Shown: in pieces, positions 1-7,650 of the stretch | How positions within the stretch are numbered: position 1 is the first letter of the stretch | Layout: each line of letters starts with the position of its first letter | Source of the DNA: a bacterium | GTDB taxonomy: Bacteria > SZUA-182 > DTGQ01 | Assembly (NCBI GenBank): GCA_040755755.1 | Contig: JBFLZW010000037.1 | Coordinates: 8,006 to 15,655 of the forward strand | Length of the DNA: 7,650 nt | Direction of reading: 5' to 3' | Program-made: the position numbers and the translations under genes | The notes under the pieces: generated by a model | Seen by the model: only the letters and a program-made list of their open reading frames with translations | What the model was told of the DNA's origin: nothing | The model's database searches: none

Positions 1-360
1 CTTCGGTCACCAATTTCTCGGTCTATGCTGAGTGCCTGCTGGTGATATTCGATAGCCTTCTCTATCTGTCCAAGCTCTCTGTAGACAATCCCCAGGTTAC
101 CTAAATCAATCCCCTCACTCTTTCGGTCACCAATTTCTCGGTCTATGCTGAGTGCCTGCTGATGATATTCGATAGCCTTCTCCATCTGTCCAATGGCTCT
201 GTGGGCGAGGCCCATGTTGCCTAACACAATCCCCTCGTCCCTTCGGTCACCAATTTCACGGTTTATGCTGAGTGCCAGCTGGTAGTACTCAATAGCCTTT
301 TCCATCTGTCCAAGGTCGTTATAGGTAAGCCCCAGCCTATTCAGCCATGCCCCTTCCTTT
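1..360 (-). repeat. Tandem 120-bp TPR-coding repeats, three units visible
   Basis: Three direct repeats (1-120, 121-240, 241-360) each encode one 40-residue TPR unit of the STAND gene. Units 1 and 2 differ at about 18 of 120 positions by eye, and only 3 of these fall in the first 73 bases. Unit 3 is more diverged. The array is cut by the window edge, so further units probably follow. The conserved stretch encodes the TPR helix B plus linker (ALSIDREIGDR), while the other part of each unit varies. Confidence 0.95.
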
Positions 361-2078
361 ATTCGATTTTTTAGTTGAAGAGCTGATTTCCATCCGGTTT
401 CATTGACGGTTAATCGCTCTATCCAATATCCTTGAATATCCATATAGTCCTCTATTGCCCAAGCCAGGCGCATGGCTGCATCCCACGCACCCCGCTTAAT
501 ACACACTTTTAGGAGATATACTATATGTAGTCGTTCAGTATCAAGATGATGGTAACCTATAAGTCCTTTCTTTGTCTCCGCTTCTGCTAAGTATATGTAT
601 TTATCTATTAATCTTTCAATTACATTGCTACCCACTTGTAACCGTTCATGTGCATAAGTATGAATAAGAGCATGGCTTACTTCATAGCGGTCGGCATTAA
701 TTGATAATAAAAAACCATAGCCAGTGAGCTGTTTAAAGGCCAGCCTTACTTCTCTGAGAGAAAAACCTAAAACTTCACTTATCAAATTTCGACTGAATGG
801 AGCAAGAGCAAGGCATCCGCAAAGAGCTATAACAGATATAGCTTGTTCGCCCACCTGCTTTAAAGAACGTTGTAATAACCAGGGAACGCTATTCTCGCGG
901 TGCCGTTTTTCGTCGGGATCAAGAGCATCAAGCGGTGTTTTCTCTAGCCATTCTAGGTATGATGAGACAGTCTCATCTTTGGTTTGCCTTAAATAGTGTC
1001 CAATAAGACGCACTGCTAGAGGTAAGCCTCCAACAATTTCACAGGTGCTCTTGGCAGAATTTTCGTTATCTATCTTGCCTTCTGCCCAGTCATACAGGAG
1101 TTTTAGTGCCTCATCTGGCTCTAAGGGTGCTAAATCCTCACGGTCTACTACAGCATCACGGCTATTCCGGCTTGTTATTAGTATTCCGCAATTGCCTGCT
1201 ACTCTCAGGACTTTTCTTAAGTCATCAGCCTCTTCGGTACCATCTAAAACCAGTAAGACCCGTTTCCCTGAAAGAGCATTAAAGGCTGCATCAGCAGGGT
1301 TCGGTTTTGGTTCATAGCCAAATGCACGGGCAATTGCCTCAAGAGCCTTGTTAGTATCTGGTTGGCCATAAAAACTATAAAATACTACTCCATCCTCGAA
1401 GCGCTCTGGTGGCTTATTATCTGAGATCATCCGCTTCAATATTTCAGCAGCGAGCGCAGTCTTTCCAATTCCGCCAGGGGCACAGATAGTAATAATACTG
1501 CCTGGTTGCAGCCTGGGTAGTATCTTATTTATTTGTGCTTCCCGGCCAAGGAAATAATCAGCCGGGCGAGGACGCTGCAAAGGTTTTTTTATAGATGCGG
1601 TTTGGGAAGTACCTTCGTTCTTCTCTGCTTGATCTTCTAATAAAGGATTAAACTCAACCTTTGTTATTTTATAGTCACCAAGCCAAAATAAAGCACTCTC
1701 AAAGTCTTTATCTTGATTATGGAAAAAGGCTGTTGCAAAATCATGTTTTACTTTTTTATCCTCAATAAGTTTCCAATTATTACCTGCGGAACGTGAAAGA
1801 GTAAACGGATAATTTTTCCCATATCTACGAGAATTTGCATAATCCCGCCACTGCCTGTAGAATTTTGGATAGCTCTCACCTTCCAAAGGAATCATCATCT
1901 TTAATTCCTTGGCAGATATTTTTCCTTTTCCTTGCGCCATCCACTTAACTATAGTCAAGATACTTTTATACCGCAGACCATCGTCACTGGTTGAGAATCC
2001 AATAAGTAACTTTTCCTCATCAGTGATTATTTCAAATGCTCTTGGGACTGTCGTTGTCTTAATTTTTACTATCTTCAT
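1..2078 (-). CDS. NB-ARC/STAND ATPase with C-terminal TPR array (partial, 3' end outside window)
   Basis: I read 692 codons from an ATG at 2078; an in-frame TGA six codons upstream limits the start, and the stop lies beyond base 1. Residues 1-165 are an unrecognised N-terminal region. Residues 40-106 could form a winged helix (inferred only). The NTPase core follows a 'FLGRE' entry motif at 177-180. The P-loop is APGGIGKT at 200-207, Walker B is RVLLVLD at 273-279, the sensor-like ITSRN is at 301-305 and GGLPLAV is at 350-356. Residues 400-500 look like the winged-helix part that follows NB-ARC cores. TPRs start near residue 575 with a 40-residue period and the motif QMEKAIEYHQQALSI. Such STAND proteins are known as nucleotide switches: the repeats sense a ligand and the N-terminal domain acts. 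Many prokaryotic relatives serve in antiphage defence or regulation; which applies here is not visible. No strong ribosome binding site precedes the ATG. Confidence 0.93.
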   Translation of the reverse strand, partial: MKIVKIKTTTVPRAFEIITDEEKLLIGFSTSDDGLRYKSILTIVKWMAQGKGKISAKELKMMIPLEGESYPKFYRQWRDYANSRRYGKNYPFTLSRSAGNNWKLIEDKKVKHDFATAFFHNQDKDFESALFWLGDYKITKVEFNPLLEDQAEKNEGTSQTASIKKPLQRPRPADYFLGREAQINKILPRLQPGSIITICAPGGIGKTALAAEILKRMISDNKPPERFEDGVVFYSFYGQPDTNKALEAIARAFGYEPKPNPADAAFNALSGKRVLLVLDGTEEADDLRKVLRVAGNCGILITSRNSRDAVVDREDLAPLEPDEALKLLYDWAEGKIDNENSAKSTCEIVGGLPLAVRLIGHYLRQTKDETVSSYLEWLEKTPLDALDPDEKRHRENSVPWLLQRSLKQVGEQAISVIALCGCLALAPFSRNLISEVLGFSLREVRLAFKQLTGYGFLLSINADRYEVSHALIHTYAHERLQVGSNVIERLIDKYIYLAEAETKKGLIGYHHLDTERLHIVYLLKVCIKRGAWDAAMRLAWAIEDYMDIQGYWIERLTVNETGWKSALQLKNRIKEGAWLNRLGLTYNDLGQMEKAIEYYQLALSINREIGDRRDEGIVLGNMGLAHRAIGQMEKAIEYHQQALSIDREIGDRKSEGIDLGNLGIVYRELGQIEKAIEYHQQALSIDREIGDR

Positions 2079-2232
2079 ATCCAGTTGCAGATCTCATAAA
2101 ATTAACCAAAATCCGAATATTTATTAAAATAAGAATCAAGAATTACCTACAGTTATGGCCTCTTCAAAAGTTGCAATGCAACTGACCTTCCTACCAAAAA
2201 ATCGTTAGGCTATTCTGTTATCAGCAAGGATT
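2079..2232 (-). promoter_or_regulatory. Intergenic region upstream of the STAND gene with a 15-bp dyad
   Basis: This 154-bp AT-rich gap separates two minus-strand genes. It holds a perfect dyad at 2169-2183 (AGTTGCA-A-TGCAACT). The half-site AGTTGCA recurs at 2083-2089, just ahead of the STAND start codon. The minus strand also shows a TTGATT followed by AT-rich sequence around 2105-2130 that could be promoter-like, but the spacing is poor. The dyad could be an operator for the STAND gene; this is inference. Confidence 0.3.
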
Positions 2233-2637
2233 TCAAGGCCGTTCATTTTCTATATCTCTTGGCTGAAGCATAGGATATTTGTCTGTGATTTTTCTAATAA
2301 CGTCTTCAAGGCCATCATTAGAAACAAGTTTTAATTGAACATAATGGTTAGGTCCAGTATATGGCAGCATATAGGGTTCAAACCAATCTTTCATCGGCTT
2401 ATATAGAACTGATATCCCCACAGTGGCACCGGCTAAATGGTAAAAACCCCAGTTGTAGTGTTCGCGGTGCGGGTCATCACAGCATCCTAAAACCGACTCT
2501 CCAAGCTTGCCTAGATCGACCCTTATCTTTCTCTCAAGTGCTCGTGTTTCATCCTCGTTTGCAGGCTCGTAATAGAGTAAAGCCTTCTCGTATTTTCCCC
2601 TCGTTACACCGTTATGCTGACCTCTATATTTTGCCAT
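2233..2637 (-). CDS. Hypothetical protein, 134 residues, unknown function
   Basis: I do not recognise this family. The protein starts MAKYRGQHNG and has no signal peptide or clear membrane span. The first 50 residues are charged and probably helical. The middle (about 45-85) has the notable run LGCCDDPHREHYNWGFYHLAG, close enough Cys and His to bind a metal, although no standard zinc motif is formed. The C-terminus is charged (RDIENERP). I prefer this strand to the overlapping plus-strand frame at 2361-2705 because its composition is that of a globular protein. The ribosome binding site is weak. It precedes the STAND ATPase gene by 154 bp in the same direction, so it may be a partner protein, but that rests on position alone. 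Confidence 0.6.
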   Translation of the reverse strand: MAKYRGQHNGVTRGKYEKALLYYEPANEDETRALERKIRVDLGKLGESVLGCCDDPHREHYNWGFYHLAGATVGISVLYKPMKDWFEPYMLPYTGPNHYVQLKLVSNDGLEDVIRKITDKYPMLQPRDIENERP

Positions 2638-2734
2638 CTTATTCAGCTCACAGTCAAAGAAAAAAGGCCAACTATATAAACCTTTCCTTTGTAACTACCA
2701 TTTAGGGGTAAAAACCCATAGTGGGGGCTTTATT
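2638..2734. promoter_or_regulatory. Divergent intergenic region between the 134-residue gene and the HTH gene
   Basis: These 97 bases lie between divergently oriented genes and should carry promoters for both. I see an AT-rich TATATA at about 2672-2677, usable as a minus-strand -10, but no convincing -35 partner. The plus-strand side has a GTGGGGGC stretch at 2721-2728 that may serve as the ribosome binding site of the GTG at 2735. Short GGGT/ACCC and CCCA/TGGG pairings are present but too small to call a terminator. Confidence 0.25.
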
Positions 2735-3109
2735 GTGAACAGGCAAAGACACAGACATCCAGAAAAATCAGCTAAGCGCTCGGATAATACGTCTGTGTCC
2801 GCTTCTGGCGTTCCGAATAAAGATGATGCTTACCTGGCAATATGGGTATTAAAAAAGTTAGGTTGGTCGGCCAGAAGGATTGCAAAGCTGAATTTGCCCA
2901 CCTCTCACCATACGATAACTAATTATTTTTCAGAGGCTTGTGAACTAATTAAAGAAGAAAAATTGCCCATTATGGATACAGGTAAGGAATCACCAAAGCT
3001 TTTGCTATCTGAGGATCTTGAATATCTTGACGCGAAGGTTAACCAAAATCCCTGCGGTGGCGGCAGGAGAGTCATGCCCCACCATTATGGCAGTGATTGG
3101 GATGATTAA
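2735..3109 (+). CDS. Small helix-turn-helix protein, C-terminus probably frameshifted
   Basis: The frame starts with GTG at 2735, preceded by a G-rich stretch about 7 bases away, and gives 124 residues. Residues 1-28 are basic and probably disordered. Residues 30-66 (DDAYLAIWVLKKLGWSARRI, then AKLNLPTSHHTITNYF) read as a helix-turn-helix of the kind seen in recombinase/transposase-like and small regulatory proteins. Residues 68-103 look helical. From about residue 106 the sequence turns un-protein-like (CGGGRRVMPHHYGSDWDD), while the +1 frame continues sensibly to 3200. I therefore suspect a one-base shift at the CCC at 3050-3052. It diverges from the minus-strand pair, which would suit a local DNA-binding regulator, but a remnant of a larger recombination gene is equally possible. 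Confidence 0.6.
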   Translation: MNRQRHRHPEKSAKRSDNTSVSASGVPNKDDAYLAIWVLKKLGWSARRIAKLNLPTSHHTITNYFSEACELIKEEKLPIMDTGKESPKLLLSEDLEYLDAKVNQNPCGGGRRVMPHHYGSDWDD

Positions 3110-3200
3110 AAGAAAAAGCCTCTGGATTCATGACGGGAAGGTTTCTCTACATTGCAGGTTTGATCACGATCTTATGACAAGAACTTTAAAGGATGTATGA
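3051..3200 (+). pseudogene. Out-of-frame continuation of the HTH gene
   Basis: In the +1 frame relative to the HTH gene, codons from 3051 encode PAVAAGESCPTIMAVIGMIK and go on through KSLWIHDGKV to a TGA at 3198-3200. The text joins naturally to the HTH protein's ...YLDAKVNQN at the CCC run. Skipping one C would give a single protein of about 154 residues. There is no good independent start: the only early one is a TTG at 3018 with no clear ribosome binding site. A sequencing error, a decayed gene or a programmed shift are all possible. Confidence 0.4.
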
Positions 3201-3312
3201 GGAATTATCCTGAAAAATATATGCAAAGGTATAGGAAGGATTAGCAGGCCATTATTTCTCAGTAAAGTCAAAACTTCTTTTTCTGAACCAATCTTTAAAG
3301 GGAGTCAAGCTA
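3201..3312 (+). other. Intergenic gap upstream of the signalling cassette
   Basis: These 112 AT-rich bases contain no gene I can support. They should hold the cassette promoter if the operon starts at 3313. A TATAGG at about 3231-3236 could be a -10, but I find no convincing -35. The end carries the ribosome binding site of the next gene (AAAGGGAG, 3297-3304). Confidence 0.35.
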
Positions 3313-3801
3313 ATGAAAAAAAATATCCTAGCCACATCAATCACCATAATATTCATCGACCTCATCATTACTTTTGCCGAGCGTTCATACATTATCCGTG
3401 GGCTGGTCCCGTTTTACAGCATACTGGTGCACAGGTATTTCACCATCAAAGCCTATGACGTGTTTCTAGTCATCGGGTTTCTTATCCTCCGGATCATTTA
3501 TGCCCATAACGGCATTAATTTCAAGACCCTGGCATCTCTGCGCTACCTGTTTTATCCCAGGGACATCAAAGACATTGCTTTCATGGCCGTTGCAGCTATC
3601 ATAACTCACTTTTACCTTTTCACCTGGCTGACACAAATCCTATCAGATCCTATCAAGGCAATAATCCTGGCCCCTGATGCAATAAAAAAATCAGTAATCG
3701 TTATCCTGCCATTTATTTGGCTATTGGCACTAACAGTCATTAGCCGGTGTATTGCTACCGGAATATCCCGGAACACTCAACCCATGCCTTCCACCTGGTA
3801 A
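3313..3801 (+). CDS. Four-helix integral membrane protein of unknown function
   Basis: The protein has 162 residues and starts at an ATG with a good ribosome binding site (AAAGGGAG, 7 to 8 bases upstream). Hydrophobic segments at about 4-21, 47-65, 86-107 and 125-146 are likely membrane helices. The loop between the second and third (about 66-85) is basic and the C-terminus is short and polar, so both ends may face the cytoplasm. I see no catalytic motif and do not recognise the family. It is the first gene of the cassette, 39 bp ahead of the vWA gene on the same strand. I infer that it anchors the phospho-signalling proteins to the membrane or senses envelope state; the evidence is position only. 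Confidence 0.75.
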   Translation: MKKNILATSITIIFIDLIITFAERSYIIRGLVPFYSILVHRYFTIKAYDVFLVIGFLILRIIYAHNGINFKTLASLRYLFYPRDIKDIAFMAVAAIITHFYLFTWLTQILSDPIKAIILAPDAIKKSVIVILPFIWLLALTVISRCIATGISRNTQPMPSTW

Positions 3802-3840
3802 GGCAGATTATCAACCCATTTATCAAAAGGAGGTCTTAAA

Positions 3841-4497
3841 ATGGCCAGCACTCAGGTTTTTAATGACAAGGAAAAGAGAAGCATCACCGAAAGAGCCACT
3901 CTACTATTGAGAGGTTCAGAGGAAAGAAGTAGCGTCGAAAAAACCGCCAATGATCTTCTCCTGGATATCAGCGGTTCTATGGGTGATCCAGTCGGAAGGG
4001 GGGATCAGAGGAGCAAGACGGATGGTGTGAAAGAGGCGGTCACCATGTTTGTGAGCAGGATGTCGCCCACTGCATGGCTATCCATTATATTGTTCAACGG
4101 CTCTGCGAGACTGCTCTGGCCCATGCAGCCGCTTGAAGACAAGGGCAAGGTAATCAATGAGGTACAGAAGATTATAGCCGACGGCTCAACTAATATGGCA
4201 GAAGGTATGATGATGGCGCTTGAGCAATTCAAGAAAGCTCCTAAAGAGTTCACCAAAAGATTGTTCGTGCTTAGTGACGGGATTTCAGGCAGTAACCCGA
4301 TGCATGCGGCAGACCTGCTTAAGAAAGCAGGCGCACGCATTACATCCATCGGCTTCGGGGATGACCTTGGAGCTCTGGATACGACAGTCCTTAAGGCCGT
4401 AGCCAGCACCTCGCCGTCTGGAAATCCCGAATACTATCATTTCCTTGATTCTGCGAACCTGACCTGCTTCATGGAAAATAAGACACGGGTCATATAG
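3841..4497 (+). CDS. vWA-domain protein, TerY-like
   Basis: The ribosome binding site AAAGGAGG (3826-3833) decides the ATG at 3841; the product has 218 residues. A single von Willebrand factor A domain fills residues 37-205. The metal-ion-dependent adhesion site is complete: D42-I-S44-G-S46, T117 in DGSTNM and D146 in VLSDG. Vertebrate-type vWA proteins use this site to bind Mg2+ and a partner's acidic residue. No signal peptide or membrane helix is visible, so it should be cytoplasmic, as TerY proteins are. The first 36 residues are charged and may be an extension. The phosphatase gene follows after 13 bp, and its ribosome binding site overlaps this gene's stop codon. By analogy with TerY-P triads it is probably the scaffold or adaptor that the kinase and phosphatase act on. 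Confidence 0.92.
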   Translation: MASTQVFNDKEKRSITERATLLLRGSEERSSVEKTANDLLLDISGSMGDPVGRGDQRSKTDGVKEAVTMFVSRMSPTAWLSIILFNGSARLLWPMQPLEDKGKVINEVQKIIADGSTNMAEGMMMALEQFKKAPKEFTKRLFVLSDGISGSNPMHAADLLKKAGARITSIGFGDDLGALDTTVLKAVASTSPSGNPEYYHFLDSANLTCFMENKTRVI

Positions 4498-4510
4498 GAG
4501 GGGTTAAGCA

Positions 4511-5320
4511 ATGGCAAATATAGCCGCAACTTCTGAAAAAGGCTTGCGCAAATTCCAGCAGGACAGTTACCGGTTCAACCTGATCGGCGGGACAGCCTGC
4601 CTTGTTGTAGCTGACGGGAACGGCGGGAACAATGCGGAAGTGCTTTCAGCAAAAGCCGCTGATAGCTGCATGTCCTGCCTGAGCCTGGCACTATCAAACG
4701 GCAGGGATATCGGTTCGGACGATTGCCTTCGGACAATAGGCATCGGGGCCATCAATTTTGCTGCGGATGCTGTCATGCAGGAAAAAGACTCCAATCATAA
4801 TCTTGCTAATGCCGGGACAACCATTACGGTTGTCCTGGCCTCTCCCCCAAGGGCTGGTGCATTCTGGATCGGGGACTCAGGGGCCTATATCTATGATTCA
4901 GACGGCCTGCTCCATCTCACTAACCCGTTGCATACACTGGCAGAGAGGCTGATTGAGCAAGGCCAGGATCCATCGATACGCACTAAACAGCCCGGCCTTA
5001 ACTCTGTGCTCACAAGATGTGCCGGGCATGAAAGCTGTGAGCCGAGTTCAAGGATAATCCGCATGGAAGGCCAGGCAATATTGCTTGCCGGAAGCGACGG
5101 AGTCTTCGGCTACCTGCCGGAAGAAGCGTTGACAGACATCCTGAAGAACAACTTGGGAGAATGCTACGATATCCGGGAGCTTGTCAAATCTATTGTCGAT
5201 ACAAGCCTTCTTGTTTACAACTCTGACGACAACTGCACCCTCATCGGATGCACGATCCAGCCGCACCACAAGCTGGCCTGCAAGACCAGCTATCTCACAA
5301 AACTCTATGAGTGGAGGTAA
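4511..5320 (+). CDS. PP2C-family Ser/Thr protein phosphatase
   Basis: This 269-residue cytoplasmic protein matches a minimal bacterial PP2C (PPM) domain over its whole length. Metal-binding motifs are present in order: QQDSY at 16-20, VVADGNGG at 32-39 (the family's usual DGxGG, with D35), AGTTITV at 101-107, GDSGAYIY at 121-128, AGSDGVFG at 193-200 (D196) and DDNCTLI at 239-245. PP2C enzymes remove phosphate from Ser/Thr with two Mn2+ or Mg2+ ions held by these aspartates. The motif usually written GDSR is GDSG here, so one common arginine is missing, but the aspartates are intact and the enzyme is probably active. The ribosome binding site AGGAGGGG (4496-4503) overlaps the vWA stop codon, which indicates translational coupling. 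The kinase encoded two genes downstream is its likely counterpart. Confidence 0.94.
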   Translation: MANIAATSEKGLRKFQQDSYRFNLIGGTACLVVADGNGGNNAEVLSAKAADSCMSCLSLALSNGRDIGSDDCLRTIGIGAINFAADAVMQEKDSNHNLANAGTTITVVLASPPRAGAFWIGDSGAYIYDSDGLLHLTNPLHTLAERLIEQGQDPSIRTKQPGLNSVLTRCAGHESCEPSSRIIRMEGQAILLAGSDGVFGYLPEEALTDILKNNLGECYDIRELVKSIVDTSLLVYNSDDNCTLIGCTIQPHHKLACKTSYLTKLYEWR

Positions 5321-5326
5321 GAACCA

Positions 5327-5683
5327 ATGGAATCAAAATATGTACTGGTAGTCAGCAACAAGGCATCAAACACTGAGAAAAGATATACGCTCGAAGAAGG
5401 CAAGGAAATCCTGGTCGGCGCTAATCCCATGGCGGCTATTCCGGTCGAGGATCAGTACATGTCTTACAACCACTTCTCCATCAATGTCAATGGAGGTAAG
5501 GTCGAGGTAAAAGACCTTAAGAGCACCAACGGTCTCTACCTTCAAATTGACGGATCTGTCCTGATTTCACCGGGCCAGACAATCATAGCCGGTAAATCCA
5601 TTTTCAAATTGGAACAGGAGGGCGATCCATGTTCTTCGGAAGGCGAACGCCAGCCGGATTCTACCCCGAACACAAAGATGTGA
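5327..5683 (+). CDS. Small stand-alone FHA-domain protein with altered phosphothreonine-binding motif
   Basis: The start codon lies 6 bp after the phosphatase stop, with GGAGG at 5313-5317 as ribosome binding site. The product has 118 residues. An FHA beta-sandwich covers about 5-96: ILVGANPM at 28-35 corresponds to the usual GR loop, YMSYNHFSINV at 44-54 to the SRxH loop and DLKSTNGLYL at 63-72 to the NG loop. S46, H49 and N68-G69 are kept, but the GR arginine is alanine (A32) and the SRxH arginine is tyrosine (Y47). FHA domains bind phosphothreonine through these positions, so this copy may be a structural adaptor or bind differently. The hydrophilic tail (97-118) is encoded in the stretch that overlaps the kinase gene by 55 bp in another frame. 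Confidence 0.9.
   Translation: MESKYVLVVSNKASNTEKRYTLEEGKEILVGANPMAAIPVEDQYMSYNHFSINVNGGKVEVKDLKSTNGLYLQIDGSVLISPGQTIIAGKSIFKLEQEGDPCSSEGERQPDSTPNTKM
5616..5622 (+). promoter_or_regulatory. Ribosome binding site of the kinase gene, inside the FHA gene
   Basis: AGGAGGG lies 6 bases before the ATG at 5629 and inside the preceding gene. It fixes the kinase start despite the 55-bp overlap, and makes coupled translation of the two genes likely. Confidence 0.85.
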
Positions 5684-6747
5684 TATACCGCAGGTACGAG
5701 GTCATTGAGATTATCGGCACGGGCGTCACCAGCATAGTCATTGTATGCATCGATCTCAGTACGAAAATGAAAGTTGCTGTCAAAAGGTTCTATCCTGAAA
5801 AGATGACTAAGAAGCTTGCAGAAAGGATCAGCCAGGAGATAAAGCTGAAGCTAAAAAGCGAATACCTGGTAAAGGCTGAACAATGTTTTGAGGAAAACGG
5901 CATCAAGCACATTGTCATGCCCCTGGTTGATGGCAAAACCCTGCGTGATGTCATTGCTATTAACGACAGGATAGATGAGATTTCAGCAGCACATTTTTCC
6001 CTCTGCCTGGCAAAGGCCGCTTTATGCCTGGGAAAAGAAGGCATCCAATCCTGCGACGTGAAACCCGAAAATGCTATCGTCACCACAGAGCGGGTGATCC
6101 TGATTGACCTCAACTGTTTCGAGAGGATCGGCTCAAGGCCTGAAGTTTCCAAGGGAACGCCCCCATATTCTCCACCGGAACTGGTAAAGAGAGACTGCCT
6201 GTCTGCCAAGACTGATGTTTACTCTGTCGGCGTGATAATGGCTGAGCTTATGCTGGGCAACGACGCTTTCTCAGGGATGGCAGCCAGATGGAGCCAGAAT
6301 GCAGAAAATGCGGTAAAACCGGATATCACGTTGCTGGTTTCAGAATACCCGGATGCAGCACGGATCATAGACAGGGCGCTTGAGCCTGACCAGCGAAAGA
6401 GGATAGGCACGGAAGAGCTTATCTGTGAGCTTTCTGATTATCTTGATTCACTTACCGGCTCTGCAACCCCAGGAAGGCTCGTCCTGGTATTCAGCAATGG
6501 CAGGCAGATACCTTTAACCGAGGGCAAAACGATCCTTGGAAGGAATGCCATAGACCCGGCGAATCTCTATATCTCGGAATCGCATTTTGAGCTTGATCTT
6601 GCAGGAAATGCGGTCAAGATGCGAAACCTCAGCAAAGTGAATCCCGCGAAGGTCAACGGTGCCAAAATAGACGGCAAATGGGTAAATCTCAATATCACGG
6701 ACGTCGTTCAGGCAGCCAATGTACAGATGACATTACAGATGGCTTAA
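5629..6747 (+). CDS. Serine/threonine protein kinase with C-terminal FHA domain (atypical catalytic loop)
   Basis: The protein has 372 residues. The Hanks-type kinase domain spans about 20-272: glycine loop IGTGVTSIV at 29-37, catalytic lysine K52 in VAVKRF, helix-C glutamate E70, catalytic loop SCDVKPEN at 141-148, DLN at 160-162 in place of DFG, a PPE at 182-184 in place of APE, and D196 in KTDVYSVG. The HRD histidine and arginine are replaced by Ser and Cys, so this is a non-RD kinase. All catalytic residues (K52, E70, D143, N148, D160) remain, which argues for activity. A second FHA domain fills about 283-372 and keeps the standard motifs: ILGRN at 302-306, ISESHFEL at 315-322, and N343-G344. 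It should bind a phosphothreonine target, perhaps on the kinase itself or the vWA protein. No transmembrane helix is present, unlike PknB-type sensors. It ends the four-gene phospho-signalling run. Confidence 0.94.
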   Translation: MFFGRRTPAGFYPEHKDVIYRRYEVIEIIGTGVTSIVIVCIDLSTKMKVAVKRFYPEKMTKKLAERISQEIKLKLKSEYLVKAEQCFEENGIKHIVMPLVDGKTLRDVIAINDRIDEISAAHFSLCLAKAALCLGKEGIQSCDVKPENAIVTTERVILIDLNCFERIGSRPEVSKGTPPYSPPELVKRDCLSAKTDVYSVGVIMAELMLGNDAFSGMAARWSQNAENAVKPDITLLVSEYPDAARIIDRALEPDQRKRIGTEELICELSDYLDSLTGSATPGRLVLVFSNGRQIPLTEGKTILGRNAIDPANLYISESHFELDLAGNAVKMRNLSKVNPAKVNGAKIDGKWVNLNITDVVQAANVQMTLQMA

Positions 6748-6760
6748 TCAAAGGTAAAGC

Positions 6761-6799
6761 TCCGGGCATGGCGGTGCAACCTAACCCGCCATGCCCGGA
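6761..6799 (+). terminator. Perfect 14-bp hairpin between kinase and wHTH genes
   Basis: Arms TCCGGGCATGGCGG (6761-6774) and CCGCCATGCCCGGA (6786-6799) pair without mismatch around an 11-base loop. It starts 14 bp after the kinase stop. No T-run follows, so it is not a classic intrinsic terminator. It may reduce read-through, protect the upstream mRNA or act as a processing site. Its right arm contains the ATG at 6791 and ends at the next gene's ribosome binding site. Confidence 0.6.
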
Positions 6800-6806
6800 A
6801 AGGAGG
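6799..6806 (+). promoter_or_regulatory. Ribosome binding site that decides the wHTH gene start
   Basis: AAAGGAGG ends 5 bases before the ATG at 6812, so translation should start there and not at the in-frame ATG at 6791, which lies inside a hairpin arm and has no ribosome binding site. Because the hairpin ends at base 6799, folding could affect access to this site. Confidence 0.8.
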
Positions 6807-6811
6807 GGCTC

Positions 6812-7528
6812 ATGAAAACAGAACCAGTAAGAATCCAGGAGAGGGACAAGCTCATCCTGAAATATATCTACAAATTCCAGTGCCTTCAGATTTCCCAGGT
6901 GGCAAAGCTTGCGGATATCAGGTGCATCAAGATATGCCAGCGCAGGATAAGGAAATTAATCAAATCCAATTACCTTGCAAAGATCGACATCCCAACGACT
7001 TTAGGCAAGAGCCCGTACCTGCTATACCTGACAGAGCGGACAGGCGCTCTTTTCAATGTCGAGGTCTCAAAGCCCAGGCTGACATTGACCCTTTCGCACC
7101 AGAACAAAAATTCCGACCTGCTCATACAGATCATCCTTAGCTTCAGGAATTCGGGAATCGAATGCGAGGTCCTGCCGGAGCACCTGATCAGGCAGGCTGA
7201 GAATGAAATCTTCCCTGACGGAGCCTTCATGCTGAGGAAAAACAACAAATCAGCCCTGTTCCTCATGGAGAACTGCACGGGAACCATGCCCCTGCGCTCA
7301 AAGAATTTTTACGAGGACATAGAATTAAAAATCGCCAGATACAGCGAAGAGCTGTTCAAGCCGAACGCTATAGGTTTTTATGAGGATTACTTCCAATCGA
7401 CTTTCAACAGGTTCAGGCTGGTCTATATCGTGAACAGCAACCAGCGTCTTGCGGCAATCAGCAAGATAGTAAAGCAGTACGACGAGCACGGGTTCGTCTG
7501 GTTAACCGTAATGAAGGATTCAAGGTAG
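6812..7528 (+). CDS. Replication-relaxation-like winged-helix protein, 3' end cut by an IS
   Basis: The product has 238 residues. Residues about 8-80 form a winged helix: RIQERDKLILKYIYKFQCLQ, then recognition-helix sequence and a wing ending in SPYLLYLTERTGALF. The rest fits the PD-(D/E)xK-like half of the replication-relaxation family: FPDGAFML at 134-141, a downstream ALFLMENCTGT with E153, and ELKIARYSEELF. Proteins of this family are carried mostly by plasmids and integrative elements of Gram-positive bacteria, where they are thought to assist replication or transfer. Here the family's second acidic residue after the glutamate is Asn, so nuclease activity is doubtful. The frame reaches the expected late strand (FVWLTVMKDSR), and its TAG sits at the edge of an IS256-family end. 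The core is therefore complete, but the original C-terminal tail may be missing. It could also be a regulator of the cassette upstream. Confidence 0.7.
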   Translation: MKTEPVRIQERDKLILKYIYKFQCLQISQVAKLADIRCIKICQRRIRKLIKSNYLAKIDIPTTLGKSPYLLYLTERTGALFNVEVSKPRLTLTLSHQNKNSDLLIQIILSFRNSGIECEVLPEHLIRQAENEIFPDGAFMLRKNNKSALFLMENCTGTMPLRSKNFYEDIELKIARYSEELFKPNAIGFYEDYFQSTFNRFRLVYIVNSNQRLAAISKIVKQYDEHGFVWLTVMKDSR

Positions 7529-7650
7529 TGTCAAGATTTTTGTGTAAAATCCTCATTAGTCAACTTTTTGAAGAATGGCAGATTGTGACGCACTTTTCCT
7601 ATTGGGTTTGACCTCCATTGGAGTTCCATCTTTAGACTGATAAAAGCCAA
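7527..7650 (-). mobile_element. End of an IS256-family insertion sequence
   Basis: The probable terminal inverted repeat begins near 7527-7529 with AGTGTCAAGATTTTTGTGTA, the form common to many IS256-family ends. It overlaps the transposase 3' end. The exact outer base is uncertain by one to three positions, because the other end and the target-site duplication are outside the window. Confidence 0.7.
7531..7650 (-). CDS. IS256/Mutator-family transposase, C-terminal 39 codons (partial)
   Basis: Read on the minus strand from the window edge, an open frame of 39 codons ends at TGA (7533-7531). It starts LAFISLKMELQWRSNPIG and ends with LTNEDFTQKS. IS256-family transposases characteristically end with a 'yLa...kW' segment and finish in or close to the terminal repeat, often as FTQxS. 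The rest of the gene, including the DDE residues, lies beyond the window, so I cannot say if it is intact. It is convergent with the wHTH gene. Alternative assignments are less likely because the stop codon lies inside the terminal repeat, as is usual in this family. Confidence 0.75.
   Translation of the reverse strand: MAFISLKMELQWRSNPIGKVRHNLPFFKKLTNEDFTQKS

Follow-up and report, generated by a model that had tools for sequence, protein, structure and literature searches.

A compact vWA, PP2C, FHA and kinase gene cluster: a putative phosphorylation switch on a mobile-looking island

Genes for a Ser/Thr kinase, a PP2C phosphatase and a vWA protein have been found together in several kinds of bacterial system. 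TerY-P triads protect against T7-like phages and Autographiviridae (PMC7699616, PMC10889362). Sets of kinase, PP2C and vWA genes are also present in predicted conflict systems, associated with GAP1-N2 (PMC7159879). The PpkA-PppA-Fha1 threonine-phosphorylation pathway of type VI secretion (T6SS) is made of the same parts as the cassette described here, with its vWA domain on PpkA (PMC3224232). We found no direct description of a vWA, PP2C, FHA and kinase operon in the literature searched.

Organization of the block and properties of its proteins

The window, i.e. the whole stretch of 7,650 nt that was analyzed, makes up the right half of a 15,655-bp contig (C37) in an assembly of 5.26 Mb that is 97.6% complete. 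The source phylum is represented by only nine genomes available for comparison. The features of the block are as follows.

3313-3801, plus strand: small membrane protein, first gene of the block (ORF; 162 aa)
3841-4497, plus strand: stand-alone vWA protein (Pfam VWA; 218 aa)
4511-5320, plus strand: PP2C-type Ser/Thr phosphatase (Pfam PP2C_2; 269 aa)
5327-5683, plus strand: stand-alone FHA protein (Pfam FHA; 118 aa)
5629-6747, plus strand: Ser/Thr kinase with a divergent C-terminal FHA domain (Pfam Pkinase; FHA by hhalign)
6761-6799, no strand: inverted repeat, perfect 14-bp arms with an 11-nt loop
6812-7528, plus strand: probable Replic_Relax-family protein (just below the Pfam PF13814 cut-off; its relatives match)

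The ORF coordinates agree exactly with a preliminary description of this DNA, which gave five genes running in one direction with gaps of 39, 13 and 6 bp and a 55-bp overlap. A Shine-Dalgarno-like sequence can be read ahead of every one of the five starts, with AGGAGGG at 5616-5622 just upstream of the kinase ATG at 5629, and the overlap of the FHA and kinase genes is therefore plausible. The five genes have GC3 values of 0.53, 0.56, 0.60, 0.55 and 0.56 in order, and the sixth has 0.68, while the three genes upstream have 0.36, 0.37 and 0.40. This shared composition suggests a block that extends over 3313-7528 and takes in the sixth gene.

The vWA protein matches its Pfam family above the gathering cut-off (E = 5.4e-17). 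Its MIDAS motif is complete (DISGS, T117 and D146), and D42, S44, S46, T117 and D146 are all kept in an alignment with YegL. The phosphatase also matches above the gathering cut-off (PP2C_2, E = 9.7e-9). The metal-site motifs VADGNGG, GDSG, SDG and DDN are present as read from the sequence, and the first three of these are covered by an alignment to PstP (1txo). The nearest characterized phosphatases are of the housekeeping PstP/Stp1 type; the score against NCBIfam Stp1 is 77 bits, where the cut-off is 230. In trees both proteins of the window lie on very long branches, and their placement gives no sister group.

The stand-alone FHA protein scores above the Pfam gathering cut-off (E = 1e-8), and reaches 41.5 bits against NCBIfam FhaB, below the cut-off. 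The C-terminal FHA domain of the kinase falls below the Pfam cut-off (FHA E = 0.028, Yop-YscD_cpl 0.0027); hhalign against 20 FHA domains gives a probability of 87.5% and E = 3.6e-6. FHA domains contact phosphothreonine through GR, SxxH and NG motifs (PMC1262709). The free protein keeps SxxH and NG and has Ala in place of the Arg of GR, and the kinase-borne domain keeps GR and SxxH while NG reads NP. Each domain thus departs from the consensus at one contact position, so that phosphothreonine reading is plausible for both but not assured.

The kinase domain likewise scores above the gathering cut-off (Pkinase, E = 3.7e-33), and its best matches are Stk1/PknB. Alignment with PDB structures indicates that the catalytic Lys, Asp and Asn and the Asp of the DFG position are kept. 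DFG reads DLN and HRD reads SCD, the latter making this a non-RD kinase. Judged by these residues it is probably active. Hydropathy gives the membrane protein about 4-5 hydrophobic segments. Its AF2 model is all-helical and of low confidence (pLDDT 62), and Pfam and the other family searches made gave no convincing relative or recognized family. A membrane linkage of the switch is plausible from adjacency and shared composition.

Given best matches to Stp1/PstP, FhaB and Stk1/PknB, the genes might be a housekeeping growth-signaling set of the PknB/PstP/FhaB kind that lies on this contig by chance. Every one of these matches is far below its equivalog cut-off, however, and there is no PASTA domain and there are no cell-wall genes. 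Searches with the vWA and PP2C proteins found the cassette absent from a genome of the same genus, and its absence from most close relatives is indicated. The contig moreover has a deviant composition (see below). We regard a housekeeping role as highly improbable.

Comparison with related systems

In E. coli K-12 the genes yegL, pphC and yegI, which we take to be a member of the TerY-P group, encode vWA, PP2C and kinase proteins. The window has the same three types of protein in the same order on one strand; the vWA proteins are 218 (window) and 219 aa long, with an intact MIDAS. The TerY-P triad layout proposed in the preliminary description is therefore borne out as regards gene order. The kinship that the name TerY-P would imply is not. 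Comparison of the window vWA with YegL by BLASTP has a best segment of only 14 columns (E = 0.009), and the PP2C and kinase score 16.9 and 25.4 bits against their K-12 counterparts, which is noise level. In the vWA tree the window protein falls in a large group of PF00092-type proteins and YegL lies elsewhere, a placement to be read with caution as both are on long branches. The vWA, PP2C and Ser/Thr kinase genes are adjacent, but these comparisons do not place the vWA in the TerY/YegL subfamily and show no homology of the PP2C and kinase beyond the general domain. In addition, the window kinase bears an FHA domain where YegI has other C-terminal sequence, and the window adds an FHA gene and a membrane protein gene.

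The block could still be a divergent TerY-P anti-phage module in the narrow sense, in which infection would shift the kinase/phosphatase balance on a vWA hub and so set off a defense response. The shared gene order, the experimental activity of such triads in defense (PMC7699616, PMC10889362) and the defense genes upstream of the block all speak for this. It is opposed by the negligible pairwise similarity to the K-12 triad and the position of the vWA outside the YegL branch, by the different composition of those upstream genes, and by the lack of a PADLOC match for the window vWA or PP2C, although PADLOC may hold no TerY-P model. On balance we think it unlikely. The earlier observation that neither a Ter effector nor a secretion apparatus is in view holds on a wider scale, as the source genome contains no TerD (PF02342) and we found no secretion gene, nor any transfer gene, on the 15,655-bp contig.

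The source genome does have a T6SS locus, on contig C72, with VipB above the cut-off. At this locus VipB/TssC is identified by HMM, and TssB, Hcp, TssF, TssG, ClpV and a VgrG-like protein by inspection. No kinase, PP2C, FHA or vWA gene is present there in 38 kb. The cassette, which has the kinase, PP2C, FHA reader and vWA domain of the PpkA-PppA-Fha1 pathway, might serve this system in trans, and one plasmid homologue of the PP2C sits within a T6SS locus. Yet the vWA is a separate protein in the window and is not fused to the kinase, the cassette is on a different contig from the T6SS locus with no T6SS gene nearby, and nothing links the two. A second phospho-signaling cluster of the genome (contig C31), with a divergent FHA gene, a PP2C and a kinase, is an equal candidate. 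We therefore consider a role in the T6SS improbable. The GAP1-N2-associated genes likewise include a linked active kinase, PP2C and stand-alone vWA, but the window has no GTPase or other core component in view.

How far the set recurs was examined in 386 genomes, where the best relatives of the vWA and PP2C have E = 1.7e-13 and 1.1e-15. No close relative of the exact five-gene set was found, and its conservation thus lends no backing to co-function of the five genes. Clusters with all four components, i.e. vWA, PP2C, FHA and kinase, are present in at least five of these genomes. This is a minimum, since the screens were not exhaustive and the counts are drawn from loci fetched by vWA, PP2C and kinase searches. 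Three have the order kinase-PP2C-vWA-FHA (G340, G210 and G068), and one is vWA-FHA-[kinase/PP2C]-kinase (G055). G353 has the order of the window, vWA(+FHA)-PP2C-FHA-kinase-kinase, although the FHA match of its third protein is weak. A sixth possible cluster (G334) has a weak vWA match. The domain content of G340, and part of that of G353 and G055, was checked with Pfam.

The clusters at loci L042, L061, L117, L106 and L071 bring all four component types together as the window does, L106 in the same order. Unlike the window they encode larger multi-domain proteins, such as a kinase with a PQQ propeller and vWA proteins with extra regions, that are about 35% identical or less; those inspected lie among ordinary chromosomal genes, and no Replic_Relax gene was seen with them. 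The FHA domains had been regarded as additions to the triad. Given the recurrence of such clusters, mostly in other orders, they are not a special feature of the window. The window combines vWA, PP2C, FHA and kinase in one cluster and so belongs to this loose recurrent type. What sets it apart is that it is compact, that its FHA and kinase genes overlap by 55 bp, and that it includes a membrane protein gene and a mobile-type partner gene.

Within the same family as the source organism, one genome has a PP2C gene adjoining an FHA-kinase fusion and a kinase with WD40-like repeats. A kinase motif scan of 85k genomes returned three generic kinases only, none of them close, and scans of viral contigs with the vWA, PP2C and Replic_Relax proteins gave no match. 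Several candidate relatives were discarded. Plasmid matches to the vWA are weak, none of those listed exceeding 27% identity, and the best is an unrelated large vWA protein. Of two plasmid PP2C homologues inspected, one is a housekeeping Stp1-PknB pair and the other is that in the T6SS locus. Kinase matches in a phage collection are on unverified scaffolds, and all three with genes listed look like ordinary Firmicutes prpC-prkC loci. A Myxococcales locus looks like a housekeeping kinase setting.

The sixth gene and the surroundings of the block

The kinase gene is followed by the inverted repeat and then by the sixth gene. The repeat has a fold z-score of -3.3 with no T-run after it, and among the fetched loci it is found only in the window. 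It is possibly an operator, an origin or an mRNA element.

The sixth protein scores 23.9 bits (E = 5e-5) against Pfam Replic_Relax, where the cut-off is 25.3, and its five aligned relatives all match this family, the best at 4.7e-22. We take it to be a probable, divergent member of the Replic_Relax family. Its AF2 model is fairly confident (pLDDT 80.5) and contains a MarR-like wHTH, in keeping with the initial assignment as a wHTH protein. In Foldseek, FokI chains come out best (E = 2.4e-4), although the TM is low at 0.33 and the rmsd is 15 over two domains; a second structure comparison gave only wHTH matches, with FokI not among the matches listed. The C-terminal domain of Replic_Relax proteins has a conserved PD...E-x-D...K pattern. 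P135-D136, E153 and K173 are invariant in six sequences, and E-x-D reads E-N-C in the window copy. The family may combine a wHTH with a PD-(D/E)xK-type domain, but in view of the low TM and the wHTH-only second comparison we treat a nuclease-like C-terminus as a lead only.

The sixth protein had also been suggested as the effector of the module, and this idea is weakened by the contexts of its relatives. Kinase, PP2C, FHA or vWA genes were found within about 1.5 kb of Replic_Relax genes at 0 of 19 loci, which argues against a dedicated effector role. Six of the eight upstream neighbors tested match TraG/TrwB coupling-protein or HerA families. The gene is better read as a sign of a mobile-element context than as an effector of the switch. 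Conceivably the switch is part of a mobile element whose replication or transfer it controls, acting through the Replic_Relax protein. The gene is on the same strand with the same composition, its relatives adjoin TraG/TrwB/HerA-type ATPases, and it has the wHTH and FokI-like fold match. Against this are the lack of phospho-modules at those 19 loci, the strong hairpin ahead of the gene and the absence of any transfer gene on the contig, and we find the proposal doubtful. A bolder version is phosphorylation-gated DNA processing on a mobile element, in which an FHA-scaffolded switch with the vWA and membrane protein would control a wHTH/FokI-like protein. This seems remote; if true, phosphorylation would set when the DNA of the element or of an invader is bound or cut.

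To the left of the block the contig carries a truncated HsdR, HsdS, a YhcG/DUF1016 nuclease gene, HsdM, a DUF488 gene and an NB-ARC-TPR STAND NTPase, i.e. a defense-type neighborhood. In the contig locus (L005) the type I restriction-modification genes span 108-6296, with the gene for the YhcG/DUF1016 PDDEXK nuclease between HsdM and HsdS and HsdR cut by the contig end. The NB-ARC STAND NTPase (window 3-2078; L005 7327-10083) has a long TPR array of near-identical repeats with an assembly gap inside. The low-GC3 part adjoining the block contains two ORFs, 2233-2637 (minus strand, 134 aa) and 2735-3109 (plus strand, 124 aa), with no convincing family match. Following the last gene, 7529-7650 begins TGTCAAGATTTTTGTGTAA and resembles a mobile-element end; the idea of a repeated insertion sequence was not confirmed, since the genome contains no further copy and plasmids gave no match.

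Three stretches taken from two other contigs of the genome resemble one another in tetranucleotide composition (correlations of 0.93-0.95), and the contig of the window reaches 0.67-0.78 against the same three. Such deviation fits horizontal acquisition or mis-binning, and the contig may be mis-binned. The block may be carried on a horizontally acquired, mobile, defense-rich island.

A proposed mode of action

The reading we favor, with a probability of about one half, is a self-contained, fast-diverging and probably membrane-linked kinase/phosphatase switch with FHA readers on a mobile-looking island. The kinase would phosphorylate itself and at least one partner, and the PP2C would strip the phosphates that it adds. 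The two FHA domains, kinase-borne and free, would recruit phosphorylated partners, and the vWA, by means of its intact metal site, would serve as an adaptor that binds peptides or as a substrate. The small membrane protein probably tethers the assembly or senses at the membrane. The kit would travel with the Replic_Relax gene on an acquired, defense-rich island, and most likely it would either drive a TerY-P-like response to stress or conflict or regulate the element. Catalytic and metal-site residues are mostly kept across the cassette, which is in favor of such a switch. Against it are the FHA contact deviations, the PstP/Stp1-type PP2C, the ordinary chromosomal setting of the other clusters inspected and the possible mis-binning.

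Such a switch would work like TerY-P or the T6SS threonine-phosphorylation pathway, and by sequence it appears to belong to neither. Because similar kits recur in other bacteria, we see it as a divergent form of a signaling switch already known in kind, and not as a novel type of system. The anti-phage action of kinase-phosphatase-vWA triads has been validated while their mechanism is unexplained, and clusters of vWA, PP2C, FHA and kinase are scattered over bacteria with no assigned role that we could find. The compact version in the window, with four cytosolic proteins of about 980 aa in total and separate readers, would be a convenient minimal set for learning what these switches sense and act on.
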